The notes under the pieces were generated by a model that made no database searches, was not told the DNA's origin, and saw only the letters and a program-made list of their open reading frames with translations. Made by a program: the position numbers and the translations under genes. Positions 1,360 to 37,437 of a stretch of 37,454 nucleotides of DNA are shown here, one piece after another. Numbering within the stretch: position 1 is the first letter of the stretch; every line of letters begins with the position of its first letter. This DNA is from Candidatus Uhrbacteria bacterium (lineage in GTDB: Bacteria > Patescibacteriota > Patescibacteriia > JACQRZ01), in contig JACQSC010000002.1 of NCBI GenBank assembly GCA_016206155.1, forward strand, positions 207,473-244,926, in the 5' to 3' direction.

Positions 1360-2427
1360 TCAAATTTCAAATTTCAAATTACGATCTGCTTTTCTGAGCG
1401 CAGTAATCATACGTCCAATATCACCGTTCATCATAGTACCGATCGCGTGCCAGCTTTGCTTAATCCGATGATCAGTAATGCGATCCTGGGGAAAATTATA
1501 GGTGCGAATTTTTTCAGAGCGGTCACCGGTACCGACCATGCCTTTTCGCTGAGATGCGCGATCGCTGCGCACGCGCTCCTCCTCAGCCACAAGAAGGCGC
1601 GAACGAAGAACAATCATCGCCCGCTCCCTGTTTTGCTGTTGGCTCCGCTCGTCCTGACACGAAACTACAATACCTGTTGGAACATGCGTCATCCGTACGG
1701 CGGAGTACGTGGTGTTAACCGATTGCCCTCCGGCGCCACTTGCGCAAAACGTATCAACTCGAATATCCTTTGGATCCAGCGTAATATCGACCTCCTCAGC
1801 CTCTGGCAGGACCGCAACCGTAACAGTCGATGTGTGGACGCGACCACTTTTTTCTGTTTCAGGCACTCGCTGGACCCTATGAACGCCTGCTTCGTACTTT
1901 AAATCTCGATACACACGTTCACCCGATATTTGGGCAATAACTTCCTTCAGCCCGCCCAGCTCCGATCGGCTCATACTGATAAGGGAGATGTGCCATCCGC
2001 GAGATTCGCTGTACAGAGTATACATCCTAAAGAGCTCTGCGGCAAATAGCGCAGACTCGTCTCCGCCAGCTCCTGCGCGAATTTCTAAAATGATGTTTTT
2101 TGTGTCATACGGATCGTGTGAATGAAAAAATTCATTGATTTCCTCTTCAAGGCTCGGCAGTTGCCGCTCAAGTGATTCTTTCTCGCTTCGCGCAAGCACA
2201 CAGAGCTCCGCATCATCACATGTGCGTAGAAGTTCTTCGGTTTCAAGACTGCGCCCGACGATATTCCTGTAGCTGGCGATAGTCTCTACCATGCGCTGGA
2301 GCGCCCTATACTCCCGAGTTACCGCCTTAAGACGCTTCGGTTCTTTTGTGAGTTTTGGGTCTGACAACTGAGCTTCACATTCCTGGTACCGCTTCTCAAT
2401 TTCAGCTTGTTGCTCTTTGGTAACCAT
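1360..2427 (-). CDS. prfA: Peptide chain release factor 1 (RF1)
   Basis: GGQ motif in [34 protein letters not shown], and [21 protein letters not shown]. Start [14 protein letters not shown] at 2427; the track N-terminal extension runs through a palindrome. Confidence 0.95.
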
Positions 2428-2440
2428 AAAAAAACATACG

Positions 2441-2494
2441 GAAAATGGTGTCAGGAATAGTTTTTTGCAAAAAACTATTCCTGACACCATTTTC
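2441..2494. repeat. Perfect 54-bp palindrome (26-bp arms, GC centre), REP-like
   Basis: gaaaatggtgtcaggaatagttttttgc / aaaaaactattcctgacaccattttc; arms exactly reverse complementary. Confidence 0.95.
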
Positions 2495-22742: not shown

Positions 22743-23645
22743 TCATTGTATGACCACTTTTGTTCCGGTTGGAGTCCATTCATAAAGAACGGATGCGTCC
22801 TTCACGCCAACGCGGATACATCCGCCTGAGAACGGGTGTCCCAAGTGGCTCTCCCCTTCCTTTTTCCCGTTAGGCCACTCGGGAAGTTCATGAATGCCAT
22901 AGAGTCCAGTTTTGACGTCTTTTCCACCAAGCCCCATCCAATACGGCATCCAGAGACCCGCTATCTTTGACCAAGCTCTCTTACTTTTGTTCGCAATATA
23001 AAATTCACCCTTCGGCGTCGGGTGCTTTCGTGTTCCTGTCGATATAATCGCCTCGCCAAGGCGAATATCATCGACAAAGTATCCCAAGCGTTGCGTTGCA
23101 AGGCTTACAACAATTTTTTTTGCAATTTTATTTGGCTCGGCAGTACGGGGATCATACCCATGAAGCACTTCATGATAATCATCATATCCATCCCCGTCGG
23201 TGTCGCGCCGCATGATGCTTGTTCCAAGGGCGATCTCAAATGCATCATTAAGCCCATCGCCTTCGCTATCGACATCGGCGAGCTTTTTCTTTAAACCGAA
23301 ACGCGGAGAATACCCTTGAGCAATTTCAAGCCCGTCAGGATAGCTGTCGCCGTCTGTGTCGGGATTCAGGGGATCGGTGTCATACCGCTCACGCTCATCT
23401 TGATCGGATAAACCATCGCCATCACTATCGAGCGGCACATCTGCACGAACAGTTGCCACGCCAAGCATCGACCACACAACGATACCGAAAAATGCCGCCC
23501 AAATTAAAAAACGCCCCACACGACTTAGCCAGTTGAGTACAGTTCGAGGCGCTGTCGAGGAACGGAGTAAGGCGTACTCTGTGTACGGTGGCAAGTAGTC
23601 AGAGACGGCAACGAAGAAATGTGCCAACTGGGTAAGTCGTGACAT
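22743..23645 (-). CDS. L,D-transpeptidase (YkuD) with N-terminal TM and TSP3-type Ca-binding repeats
   Basis: DSDGDGLSDQDERERYDTDPLNPDTDGDSYPDGLE...; YGIHELPEWPNGKKEGESHLGHPFSGGCIRVGVKDASVLYEW. Likely start ATG 23645, overlapping the TAA of the upstream gene. Confidence 0.9.
   Translation of the reverse strand: MSRLTQLAHFFVAVSDYLPPYTEYALLRSSTAPRTVLNWLSRVGRFLIWAAFFGIVVWSMLGVATVRADVPLDSDGDGLSDQDERERYDTDPLNPDTDGDSYPDGLEIAQGYSPRFGLKKKLADVDSEGDGLNDAFEIALGTSIMRRDTDGDGYDDYHEVLHGYDPRTAEPNKIAKKIVVSLATQRLGYFVDDIRLGEAIISTGTRKHPTPKGEFYIANKSKRAWSKIAGLWMPYWMGLGGKDVKTGLYGIHELPEWPNGKKEGESHLGHPFSGGCIRVGVKDASVLYEWTPTGTKVVIQ
23519..23641. mobile_element. ~123-bp inverted-terminal-repeat element, copy A (MITE-like)
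   Basis: Ends CACGACTTAgCCAGTTG / CAACTGGgTAAGTCGTG (17-bp TIRs, one mismatch); homologous along its length to 28513-28636. Confidence 0.75.
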
Positions 23646-24637
23646 TACTGCTCTTTCGATGGCGTTAGTACCCGAAGCCGCTCGAGCCAACCCGAGGATT
23701 TCTCAATATTTTTTGTCCACACGCTTGTGAGTGGCAGCGCCGCGTCCACCGCGCGGTCAATCACTAATTGCGCGAAACGCTCGCGGCCTTGTGCGCCAAG
23801 CACATTATACGACCATACCATGAGTGTGATTACAAGCCCAGCCACTGCCCACATCCTCAAACCAACGCGTTCACCTCGAAATGCATGAAATGGTATATTT
23901 CGTTCAACCGCAACAAGATCCTGATACCGAAAATATTCATAGAGAATGTAAAAAGGAAACGCAAAAAACGCAAGCGCAATAAAACAGAGGGTAAAAAGCA
24001 GCCACCCAATAAATGGGAGCGCAAGCAGAAGCCACACAAGCACAAATGCAAGAAACACAAGAAGCGTTATCGCCACATAGCGTCCAAACACGCGAAAAAA
24101 CATTCCATGGACAAGATACCGGCTCTTTGCCAATGCATTCCATCCACGCTCTTTATCCAGCAACACAATAAAAAAGGCAAAGTAAAACCAGATCGAAAAA
24201 AAGAACGGCATCACAACAATCGCCAACCCTCCGTTCATAATTAGGAAAAGCAACAATCCGATGACGAACACGTCAACATATCGTTGTGCGGCCATTTCAA
24301 AGCTTTCCACAAGTGTAAGGGTTCTGCCACGGTATTTTTCATCGACAAGATACACAATTGCGGCAAAGATAAAGCTGAAATAAAAACCGCTAATAGCAAT
24401 GTTAATGACCGTGTTGAGAACTCTTACAAATCCCTGCGCAACAACCGATCCCTCCCGAACAAAAGAGATAAGACTGTCCTGAATGGAAATATTCAAAAAA
24501 GCGCCAATGCCAAACAATGCCGCCAGAACCAGCAATTTTGGAAAGAGCTCTTTATACAATGCCCACGCGCGGGCAAGAAGCGATCCGACGCCGGGAAGGT
24601 TCACCAGCATCAGCTCACCGGTTGGTGGATGTTTCAT
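23645..24637 (-). CDS. Multi-pass membrane protein of unknown function
   Basis: Several long hydrophobic segments; 330 aa; operon-like overlap with the L,D-transpeptidase. Confidence 0.7.
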   Translation of the reverse strand: MKHPPTGELMLVNLPGVGSLLARAWALYKELFPKLLVLAALFGIGAFLNISIQDSLISFVREGSVVAQGFVRVLNTVINIAISGFYFSFIFAAIVYLVDEKYRGRTLTLVESFEMAAQRYVDVFVIGLLLFLIMNGGLAIVVMPFFFSIWFYFAFFIVLLDKERGWNALAKSRYLVHGMFFRVFGRYVAITLLVFLAFVLVWLLLALPFIGWLLFTLCFIALAFFAFPFYILYEYFRYQDLVAVERNIPFHAFRGERVGLRMWAVAGLVITLMVWSYNVLGAQGRERFAQLVIDRAVDAALPLTSVWTKNIEKSSGWLERLRVLTPSKEQ

Positions 24638-27409: not shown

Positions 27410-28498
27410 TCAATTGGCGCGTTTCCATCTAAGCAAAAGCACAAGAACAACCATGACCCCAACAAGGAGCGTGAGCGCTGTGGCTTTTTGCTGTGTCTGC
27501 ATAAAGAGCGCTGCGGCGCCAAAAAGCGCGGACACCGCCCAGAGAATCAATACGGTTTGCCGTTGGGTAAAGCCGGCATCAACCATGCGAAAGTGAAGGT
27601 GCTTTCGGTCGCCCTGAAACGGCGACCTCCGTTCAATAACGACGCGGCGAAAGATAATCCAGGCTGTATCAAGAATTGGAATACCTAACACAAGCAAAGC
27701 GATGGCAAACTTTGCGCCCGATATGATTGCGAGAACGCCAAGCAAAAACCCCGCAAGCAAGCTGCCTGCTTCACCAAGGAAAATTTTCGCGGGATTAAAA
27801 TTCCACAAGAGAAATCCCGCAAATGCCCCTGCGGCCAGAAAAGAGAGCAGCGCGGTTGGTTCGTTGACAAAGAAGAACAAACTCACCAAACCAATGATCG
27901 CCGCACCAATGGCCGTAATGCCGGAAACAAGGCCATCAAGTCCATCAAGAAGCTTTGTGGTATACATCGTGCCAAAGAGCCAAAGAAATGTGAGAAGATC
28001 AGCCCATACTGTGAGATACCGCGGAAGTCCGTTCCACCAAAAAAGAAAAATCTCCCACTGATTCAACGGCAGCTGCTGTCCGGTCACAGGGTTGGTCATG
28101 CTTTCAACGCCAAGGCCAAAGGCTATCACTATGAGTACCGCAAGGAATGGCGCGCCTATTATGTGAAGGGGCTTTAATGAATAACGGTCATCGAACGCGC
28201 CGCCAACGACCAAAACAATTGAGGCCAATGCGAGACCAATAAGATGCTTTCCCTGAACATGAATATCTATAAGCGCCGGCCAGTCCTGCGGCGCAAAGAA
28301 ATAATAAAGGCTGGCAACACTTGCGAGTGAAAAAAAAATGCCAATGCCACCAAGCAACGGTATTGGCTTGGTATGAATTTTGCGCGGGGCGCCGGGGCGG
28401 TCAACGATGTCGTACCGTATGGCGATTCCGCGCACTATTGCCGTTGCCGCTACCGAGCATACGAACGCAGTTAAAAAAACAACTATGTAGATCATCAT
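27410..28498 (-). CDS. WecA/TagO/MraY-family polyprenyl-phosphate sugar-1-phosphate transferase
   Basis: DRPGAPRKIHTKPIPLLGGIGIF, TKLLDGLDGLVSGITAIGA, FLGEAGSLLAGFLLG, QGDRKHLHFRMVDAGFT; many TM helices. Confidence 0.92.
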   Translation of the reverse strand: MMIYIVVFLTAFVCSVAATAIVRGIAIRYDIVDRPGAPRKIHTKPIPLLGGIGIFFSLASVASLYYFFAPQDWPALIDIHVQGKHLIGLALASIVLVVGGAFDDRYSLKPLHIIGAPFLAVLIVIAFGLGVESMTNPVTGQQLPLNQWEIFLFWWNGLPRYLTVWADLLTFLWLFGTMYTTKLLDGLDGLVSGITAIGAAIIGLVSLFFFVNEPTALLSFLAAGAFAGFLLWNFNPAKIFLGEAGSLLAGFLLGVLAIISGAKFAIALLVLGIPILDTAWIIFRRVVIERRSPFQGDRKHLHFRMVDAGFTQRQTVLILWAVSALFGAAALFMQTQQKATALTLLVGVMVVLVLLLRWKRAN

Positions 28499-28512
28499 AC
28501 TCTCATTCTTAC

Positions 28513-28636
28513 CACGACTTACGCAGTTTGATGCAGTTCAAGGCGCCGACGAGGAACGGAATAAGCTGTACCTTGATGGTACAGTGTTGAGTACCGCAGT
28601 CGGCAACGAAGAAATGCGCGAAATGCGTAAGTCGTG
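28513..28636. mobile_element. ~124-bp inverted-terminal-repeat element, copy B, with 6-bp flanking direct repeat TCTTAC
   Basis: TIRs CACGACTTACGCA / TGCGTAAGTCGTG (13 bp perfect); TCTTAC at 28507-28512 and 28637-28642. Confidence 0.85.
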
Positions 28637-30055
28637 TCTTACAATGCGTGGCCCATCTGGCATGTCATCGACACGATATCCAGCCCTTGCTATTTCGTCC
28701 CGCAGGGCGTCCGCCACTGCCCACCGCTTTTCTTTGCGGGCATGCTCTCGCTTGTCAGCAAGGAGGCTTACCTGCGCGGGAATACGGTCGTCCCGCCGGG
28801 TAAGCGATAGGCCAAAAACAGCATCAATCTTTTTTATAAATGCGCACACTATTCGATAATCACCCCTTCCGAGCCGAGCGGTCCTTCGATTGACCTGTGA
28901 GATAAAATTAAACAGCGCAGCCAATGCCTGCGGGGCGCCAAGATCGTCCGCAAGCGCAGCATCAATTTTCTTGGATGTCCTCGTGATCAGCGGCTCGATG
29001 CTCACCTTTTTTGGCTGAGCGCGTGTGGCGCGCAAAACATACTCACGCACGTTTTCACGGAGAGATCGATAGCCATTCTGCGCCGCATCCATGCTCTGCC
29101 ATGTAAAATTGAGCTGCTGTCGATAGTGGGTCTGCAATAGAAAAAAACGATACGCAAGCGGGTCATACCCCCGCTCGGCAAATGATTGAAGTGTGATAAA
29201 GTTTCCCTCTGACTTCCCCATTCGCGTTGAATCTATAACTAGAAACTCGCCATGCATCCAAAACAGTGCCATCGGCTTACCTGCTGCCGCCTCGCTCTGC
29301 GCTATCTCGTTGGTATGATGCACTGCAATATGGTCTATTCCGCCGGTATGAATATCAAAGGGTTGTCCGAGATAGTGCGTCGACATTGCCGAACATTCGA
29401 TGTGCCATCCCGGATAGCCGGCTCCCCACGGGGACTCCCATTTCATATCCTGATCCTGAAATTTTGATTTCGTAAACCACAGCACAAAATCATGCTCGTG
29501 TCTTTTATGTACATCCTTGTCTACGCGCGCAACCGATTTGCCAGTTTGCTTATCACTCCATTTCAGTTTACCATACCCCTTCCATGTTGACGTATCAAAA
29601 TAGACATTCCCTCCGGCTCTATAAGTGTGGCCTTTTTTTTCAAGTCGCTCGATCAGCTCTATCTGCAGCCAAATATGGTCAGTGGCTTTGCACCAAATGT
29701 TTGGCGCGATGATATTGAGATCGCGAATGTTGTCCTTGAAAGCATCTGTATAAAACTCGGCTATCTGCCATACGGTCTTACGCTCGCGCTGAGCCCCAAG
29801 AAGCATCTTATCATCGCCGCTATCCGCATCGGATGTCAAATGCCCGACATCGGTAATGTTCATCACGTGCTTCACCCGATAACCGAAGTGTATGAGTACC
29901 CGCTTGAGTGTATCGGCAAAAAAATAGGATCGCAAATTCCCGACATGCGCATAGTTGTACACCGTCGGTCCGCAGGTATAGAGGCGGACAGTCTTTCCCT
30001 TCAAGGGTTTGAATGCCTCTTTTTTTCGCGTCAGGGTGTTGTAAAGATGGAGCAT
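28538..30055 (-). CDS. cysS: Cysteinyl-tRNA synthetase (C-terminal ~33 aa encoded by the inserted element)
   Basis: LYTCGPTVYNYAHVGNLRSYFFADTL, GWHIECSAMSTHYLG, DIHTGGIDHIAVHHTNEIAQSEA, MGKSEGNFITL; ATG at 30055 (track uses TTG 30061). Confidence 0.95.
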   Translation of the reverse strand: MLHLYNTLTRKKEAFKPLKGKTVRLYTCGPTVYNYAHVGNLRSYFFADTLKRVLIHFGYRVKHVMNITDVGHLTSDADSGDDKMLLGAQRERKTVWQIAEFYTDAFKDNIRDLNIIAPNIWCKATDHIWLQIELIERLEKKGHTYRAGGNVYFDTSTWKGYGKLKWSDKQTGKSVARVDKDVHKRHEHDFVLWFTKSKFQDQDMKWESPWGAGYPGWHIECSAMSTHYLGQPFDIHTGGIDHIAVHHTNEIAQSEAAAGKPMALFWMHGEFLVIDSTRMGKSEGNFITLQSFAERGYDPLAYRFFLLQTHYRQQLNFTWQSMDAAQNGYRSLRENVREYVLRATRAQPKKVSIEPLITRTSKKIDAALADDLGAPQALAALFNFISQVNRRTARLGRGDYRIVCAFIKKIDAVFGLSLTRRDDRIPAQVSLLADKREHARKEKRWAVADALRDEIARAGYRVDDMPDGPRIVRHDLRISRISSLPTAVLNTVPSRYSLFRSSSAP

Positions 30056-30060
30056 TGCCA

Positions 30061-30113
30061 AGGGTTTAGGGTTTAGGGTATAGGGTTTAGGGTTTAGGGT
30101 TTTTTGAAACCCT
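30061..30113. repeat. Tandem heptamer array (AGGGTTT)6, one unit AGGGTAT, ending in an AGGGTTT-tttg-AAACCCT hairpin
   Basis: Direct reading of 30061-30102 plus 30096-30113. Confidence 0.97.
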
Positions 30114-36504: not shown

Positions 36505-37437
36505 TTAAAGCGCACGCAAAAACGCTTCCATTCCCCGCTCGCGGTGACCCGAAACCGAACAGTTGAGCGTGTAAATGCCGGGCTCGAGAGAGTCAAATTC
36601 AAGAATCGCCGACTCTCCCGGCGCTATCGTAGGCGTGCCAATACCCAGTTCCTTGACGGTAAGATTGTGTGGTGCGGCGCCGTTGTTTTTGAATATCATT
36701 CGCAGCGGTTTATCCGCATCAATCTTTGTTGAATAGGGTGTGAGAGAAAATTCTTTTGCTGACATATCAACCAGCGTAGGCTTCTCTTTTGTTTTTGATA
36801 GTGATACCGGCTGCGCGTCACGGGCAGAACCACGCTCTGGAATGAGAAGCAGGTTTGCGTGCGTAATACCAAGCGAGAGCTCCCTCATGATACGGAACGC
36901 GTCTTCCGGTCGTCCAAGGTAATATCGTTTTCCATCTATGGGATAGACATACCACGCCTGTCCCGCCGTCTCAACTTGAAGAAGAATGCGCCCCTGCATT
37001 CGATTGAGCAATCGTTGATTCGTTTGAAATCGTGACGGACCGGTTGGCGAATAATTTTGCTGAATCTCTTCTTTGTCGCCATACCCATCTCCATCGGTGT
37101 CGGGTCGCTGGGGATCGGTTCCCAACGCCTCTTCAAAAGAGTCGGCAAGCCCATCCCCGTCGCTATCAGGGCCTGATACTGGCAAAAGCGCTGGCGGAAT
37201 GCCGGCAAGTTCTTGGGTACGAATCCCAAGACCCAACTCGCGCATCACGCGGAAGGCATCTGCAGGACGGCCGAGGAAAACGCGCTCATTGGTTGTCGGC
37301 TGGACATACCATGCCTCACCGTTTTGCTCAACATCGAGAAGAATGCGACCAGACAGAACCGGCGCAGCATCGACTGGCGATATGCCAAAAAGCATGCCGC
37401 CGATAACCGATATCGCGATGGTAAAAAAATAGTTCAT
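36505..37437 (-). CDS. Secreted protein: two GRILL-QVE-AWYV-LGRP-DAF repeats, TSP3 repeats, C-terminal cupredoxin-like domain
   Basis: Signal peptide MNYFFTIAISVIGGMLFGISPVDAA; DSDGDGLADSFEEALGTDPQRPDTDGDGYGD; PHNLTV...YTLNCSVSGHRERGM. Confidence 0.85.
   Translation of the reverse strand: MNYFFTIAISVIGGMLFGISPVDAAPVLSGRILLDVEQNGEAWYVQPTTNERVFLGRPADAFRVMRELGLGIRTQELAGIPPALLPVSGPDSDGDGLADSFEEALGTDPQRPDTDGDGYGDKEEIQQNYSPTGPSRFQTNQRLLNRMQGRILLQVETAGQAWYVYPIDGKRYYLGRPEDAFRIMRELSLGITHANLLLIPERGSARDAQPVSLSKTKEKPTLVDMSAKEFSLTPYSTKIDADKPLRMIFKNNGAAPHNLTVKELGIGTPTIAPGESAILEFDSLEPGIYTLNCSVSGHRERGMEAFLRAL

Follow-up and report, generated by a model that had tools for sequence, protein, structure and literature searches.

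The cysS/wecA-like junction and its insertion

The window, that is, the whole stretch of 37,454 nucleotides of Candidatus Uhrbacteria DNA that was analysed, lies on contig C9 of a 913,686-bp host genome (G000) and carries on its minus strand the cysteine--tRNA ligase gene cysS, followed by a gene for a wecA/mraY-like glycosyl-phosphate transferase. At the junction of the two sits a short element, hereafter copy B, without an ORF or transposase gene of its own (Table 1). Its terminal inverted repeats (TIRs) are perfect over 13 bp, and the positions given for the flanking TCTTAC duplications in an earlier note on this DNA proved exact when re-read from the sequence. Perfect 13-bp inverted-repeat pairs at this spacing occur twice in the window against 0.15 expected under a Markov-1 model, and only the pair of copy B is flanked by a 6-bp direct repeat. 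The plus strand of the element is predicted to fold at -60.2 kcal/mol (z = -8.35), with none of 200 shuffles as good.

Table 1. Features of the cysS/wecA-like junction and the second copy of the element in the window
Feature	Position	Strand	Remarks
Copy A of the element	23519..23641	+	76% identical to copy B
wecA/mraY-like glycosyl-phosphate transferase	27410..28498	-	Starts at 28498, 15 nt outside the left end of copy B
Left target-site duplication TCTTAC	28507..28512		
Element copy B	28513..28636 (124 bp)	+ (strand with the conserved fold)	Left end 28513, right end 28636; R1 model, 129.4 bits
Left TIR, CACGACTTACGCA	28513..28525	+	Matches IS701-type IS ends YA(G/C)GACTTWCGC
Right TIR	28624..28636	-	TGCGTAAGTCGTG on the plus strand
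Right target-site duplication TCTTAC	28637..28642		Reverse complement encodes V474-R475 of CysRS
cysS, cysteine--tRNA ligase (CysRS)	28538..30061	-	TIGR00435 covers residues 4-475

The native part of CysRS ends at about residue 475, the arginine encoded by the duplicated TCTTAC, which is also where the TIGR00435 match ends. Residues 476-507 (HDLRISRISSLPTAVLNTVPSRYSLFRSSSAP) and the stop codon are coded wholly within copy B, confirming the earlier proposal of an element-encoded tail, here 32 residues long. Deletion of copy B together with one TCTTAC was likewise said to restore an ATGA overlap, and the joined flanks do read this way: cysS ends GPRIV-R-M-R-V-TGA, its TGA and the ATG at 28498 overlap as ATGA, and the predicted empty junction is GTAAGAATGAGAGTATGATG. 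The tail is absent from the inspected C-termini of CysRS orthologs in 26 relatives, cysS orthologs ending near GPRIV as anticipated, and the wecA-like gene follows cysS in genomes of the same family. The predicted overlap, with the wecA-like start at -4, occurs in four of these genomes (G001, G003, G006 and G009); it is probable in G004, as an alternative start, and in G005, where the junction reads TTATGATG and also allows the -4 start. This comparison covers same-family genomes; in the nearest relative, G008, the site has no element, but a spacer replaces the overlap. Given the ATGA overlap in relatives and the tail-less orthologs, the predicted ancestral junction is probably real. The insertion illustrates how reduced CPR genomes acquire protein tails and lose translational coupling through mini-transposons.

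Other repeats were observed in the window. A 56-bp perfect palindrome (2440-2495), which covers the start annotated for prfA (release factor 1, 1360-2490, minus strand), and a 53-bp near-perfect palindrome (2860-2912) both carry GGTGTCAGGA / GGGGTCAGGA motifs. Two ORF regions (23168-23360 and 37065-37167) contain 37-nt repeat units (GTCGCCGTCTGTGTC-like) that possibly encode Asp-rich, calcium-binding-like protein repeats.

A dispersed family with target duplications

Matches to the element in the host genome number nine by BLAST and 12 by R1, a covariance model of structure built from 18 copies and comprising 121 positions and 40 pairs. Among the copies, copy A shows no clear target duplication, and its right end adjoins the stop codon of a minus-strand ORF (23645-24637). 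Of the 381 genomes of the class, 70 gave R1 matches and several of these hold 10-54 copies; copy B thus has hundreds of relatives, which differ in sequence but retain the folded shape. Pattern matches extend to Kerfeldbacteria, Uhrbacteria, Doudnabacteria, Kuenenbacteria and others; those outside CPR comprise two Omnitrophota MAGs and one Micavibrio MAG, for which binning errors are possible. Virus-borne copies were rejected, as the five pattern hits among IMG/VR virus sequences gave no R1 match. In the CPR literature searched we found no study of such repeats, nor did we find the terminal sequence printed in such a context in the literature searched.

Two further copies in the host genome have 6-bp duplications (GAATAT at C8:13710 and GTACTA at C9:109285), and among 81 copies 5-bp duplications were observed nine times against 0.3 expected; some copies carry duplications of 7-9 bp. 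In the genome of Candidatus Magasanikbacteria JACPGS01 (G349; 29 R1 matches), the TIRs extend to 17-18 bp and the ends read TAGGACTTWCGCGTTTGG. Matches to the TIR with few mismatches in this genome all pair into short elements except two, which are right-end remnants. The G349 copies are young: most of those fetched are flanked by clean 5-bp duplications at AT-rich, TTA-like targets, and one pair at unrelated sites shows no difference over 123 bp. The arms of family f57 diverge from the IS701-type ends, and its tRNA-adjacent copies are without clear duplication. At another host locus (L093, 3863-4072; C1:117862-118071), two divergent copies stand back-to-back in opposite orientation, 4 nt apart.

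Covariation within the interior

In an alignment of 86 copies fitted to the R1 model, standard pairs occupy 94.2% of pair cells and changes on both sides are seen at 39 of the 40 pairs, with a covariation score of 0.703 versus 0.202 for shuffled alignments and 0.07-0.11 for slid structures. The 18 copies aligned independently, with 27 of 40 pairs covarying, agree with this, as do the slid structures. At an orthologous tRNA-Tyr site compared between the congeneric genomes G324 and G252, paired changes occur in both the arm and the interior. With pairs whose consensus is G.U set aside, G.U outnumbers A.C by 96 to 29, and the plus strand of the window is therefore the folding strand.

The idea that neutral palindrome correction alone produced this covariation was rejected, because the hairpin of one strand has internal loops and mismatches that persist at fixed places, although the process itself does occur: one G349 copy (L154, 541-680; C2:41279-41330) is a 52-bp perfect snap-back consisting of the left arm, an 8-nt loop and the exact complement, which is evidence of self-templated arm copying. 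The covariation shows that the interior of a MITE can be structurally constrained.

Orientation of copies beside genes and tRNAs

Placement was assessed in about 155 copies with gene calls taken as simple ORF picks, and the counts are not fully independent, because some loci were chosen for clustered copies and some copies are orthologous; within this set, 36 copies have a tRNA or tmRNA gene no more than 20 nt away, and the right end points toward the gene in 36 of 36, the left end in none. These right ends lie 0-15 nt from the gene, on its 5' or 3' side, while left ends never come nearer than 44 nt. Between co-directional genes the element is antisense in 55 cases versus sense in 17 (p = 8e-6), and a stop codon falls within 10 nt of the right end in 32 copies versus six for the left end. 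A further 44 copies gave the same direction more weakly (14:8 and 6:2, with one tRNA, at the right end). Copies A and B both fit the rule, each with its right end toward the 3' end of a minus-strand gene. Polarity relative to transcription varies, the element being sense before tRNAs and antisense after tRNAs and stop codons.

A replication-strand bias was rejected, since on a 1.5-Mb contig of G287 orientation mostly tracks local gene direction and not one strand. In G252, inverted copies stand on both sides of the tmRNA gene (L210, 1057-1702), their right ends 5 nt and 1 nt away. To our knowledge, ordinary mini-transposons do not show such same-end orientation toward tRNA genes or gene ends; the one-sided placement (36 to 0 at tRNAs) is a sharp rule that symmetric-end DDE transposition does not predict.

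IS701-type relatives and separable ends

Scanning 85,000 species genomes for the end TAGGACTTWCGCGTTTGG yielded 96 stretches, many of which contain the R1 core. The same ends also bracket unrelated hairpins (TGTCATTCCCG...CGGGAATGACA, TGTCATTGCGAG...GCAATGACA, CTCCCTTT...AAAGGAGG and CCCTTCGACAGGCTCAGG), and for this reason ends and interior are separable modules, one terminal chassis carrying many interiors. Hairpins dispersed widely in CPR genomes (TGTCATTCCCGCG..., TGTCATTGCGAG... and CCCTTCGACAGG...) were observed enclosed by these ends at loci L232, L242, L273, L289, L212, L219, L296, L293, L220 and L305.

One of the 96 stretches (L299) holds a decayed transposase that matches NF049921, the NCBIfam model of an IS701-type group, and a search with this model within the class returned 24 genomes. 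These include that of L314, a 1,096-bp IS that carries TAGGACTTACGCGTTTG at either end and is flanked by the 6-bp duplication CAAGAT; its transposase scores 324.6 bits (cut-off 250). Autonomous relatives with matching ends, namely L314, L317, L318 and plasmid ISs, all reside in other genomes. The plasmid ISs, from Methanosarcina (M. barkeri), Gloeocapsa and Piscirickettsia, have 5-bp duplications and the TIRs TAGGACTTACGCAGTT, CAGGAGTTACGCAGTTG and CACGACTTTCGCAC, which bracket the CACGACTTACGCAGTT of copy B. Full-length transposons with ends of this kind, for which the earlier note had suggested a search, thus exist, with duplications of 6 bp (L314) and 5 bp (plasmid ISs); the host genome and G349 contain none with identical ends.

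The host genome (93.8% complete) yielded no NF049921 transposase, nor did G008, G085 or G349; mobilisation would therefore have taken place in trans, and copy B is assigned to the IS701 type by its ends only. Descent of the core from a parent IS was considered and rejected, as the R1 model matches nothing in 14 IS loci. This work ties a repeat that is widespread but unannotated in CPR genomes to the named NF049921 clade of transposases.

Origin of copy B and competing explanations

We interpret copy B as a non-autonomous miniature transposon (MITE) with IS701-type ends, a reading to which we assign a probability of roughly 0.86. The TIRs, the duplication, the dispersed copies, the matches to IS ends and the ancestral arrangement in relatives are observed directly, and the initial description, in which a MITE-like element inserted with a 6-bp duplication at a site whose empty form can be reconstructed, is supported. 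An IS701-type DDE transposase of the NF049921 group would act in trans on the ends of copy B, this enzyme being the putative one here, and a staggered target cut of 5-6 bp at the 3' end of cysS would be followed by insertion. Covariation shows that either selection or the way the element propagates maintains the folded plus strand; at one stage or another of propagation the interior probably has to adopt its fold as single-stranded DNA or RNA. The placement statistics show insertions at a gene or tRNA edge with the right end toward that edge.

Ordinary DDE mobilisation requires only the ends, and it therefore leaves both the conservation of the interior fold and the bias in orientation unexplained. 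A tentative, rather unlikely extension is that these elements form a class of bacterial mobile elements with an obligate single-strand fold, an insertion machinery that reads gene and tRNA boundaries, and one end facing them. If true, they would be orientation-specific, tRNA-targeting mini-elements riding in different terminal-repeat chassis, with a logic comparable to that of the tRNA-targeting retroelements of eukaryotes. A selected single-stranded intermediate is possible, but the strictness of the 5-6 bp duplications and the identity of the ends with those of ISs speak for insertion by a transposase.

In an improbable alternative, copy B is not a DDE-moved MITE: a structured element is copied via RNA or single-stranded DNA and its right (3') end is joined first at a nick at the gene edge. 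This would resemble the way in which SINEs insert by target-primed reverse transcription, with IS-like ends as a later or lineage-specific coat, and it accommodates the conservation of one strand's fold, the constant presence of the right end on the tRNA side, the duplications of 7-9 bp at some copies and the fact that all three solo or truncated ends are right ends (G000 C1:15852, G349 C9:14704 and G349 C26:9156). Three truncated copies are too few, however, and both the 18-bp TIRs identical to those of IS701-type ISs and the strictly 5-6 bp duplications of young copies argue against it.

Slightly less probable again is a functional RNA or cis-element (a terminator, an mRNA-stabilising hairpin or a tRNA-processing hairpin) kept where it is useful, with mobility secondary. 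The covariation at the orthologous tRNA-Tyr leader and the adjacency of copies to tRNA or tmRNA ends and stop codons agree with such a role, but polarity relative to transcription is inconsistent, presence is patchy at 70 of 381 genomes, no terminator-like site was found at copy B and Rfam 15 gave no match at the gathering score. That a chance inverted and direct repeat adjoins a genuinely longer CysRS, as the shortness of the direct repeat might suggest, has a negligible probability, refuted by homologous copies dispersed in and beyond the host genome and by orthologs without the tail.

Comparison with known systems

ERIC, Correia and Rickettsia palindromic elements are imperfect palindromes of 100-150 bp that sometimes extend ORFs, and Correia and ERIC elements are associated with TA targets. 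The family of copy B has similar palindromes, whereas its sequence is unrelated. REP/BIME sequences with RAYT transposases (PMC3733652) are likewise imperfect palindromes close to stop codons; REPs, however, measure 20-40 bp and are tagged GTAG/CGTC (PMC3733652), and they lack a target duplication, whereas this family ends in CACGAC/YAGGAC, is about 121 bp long and has TIRs and target duplications.

With IS701-type ISs of the NF049921 clade the family shares ends of the form YA(G/C)GACTTWCGC and an AT-rich duplication of 5-7 bp, but the element is without an ORF, and the IS loci tested do not contain its hairpin core. The duplication of IS701 has been published as 4 bp (PMC2266710), in contrast to 6 bp at copy B and 5-7 bp in the NF049921 clade.

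In build the family resembles bacterial MITEs such as Nezha, QMITE and MITEAba12 (PMC10969869), which are also short, ORF-less, intergenic and mobilised in trans by ISs, with TIRs, target duplications and a hairpin; the review that describes them (PMC10969869) makes no mention of tRNA, stop codon or orientation. The family of copy B differs in adding a class-wide compensatory interior fold and an oriented position beside genes and tRNAs. Three features go beyond an ordinary MITE, namely homologues in 70 of the 381 class genomes, a covarying fold with fixed loops and oriented placement.
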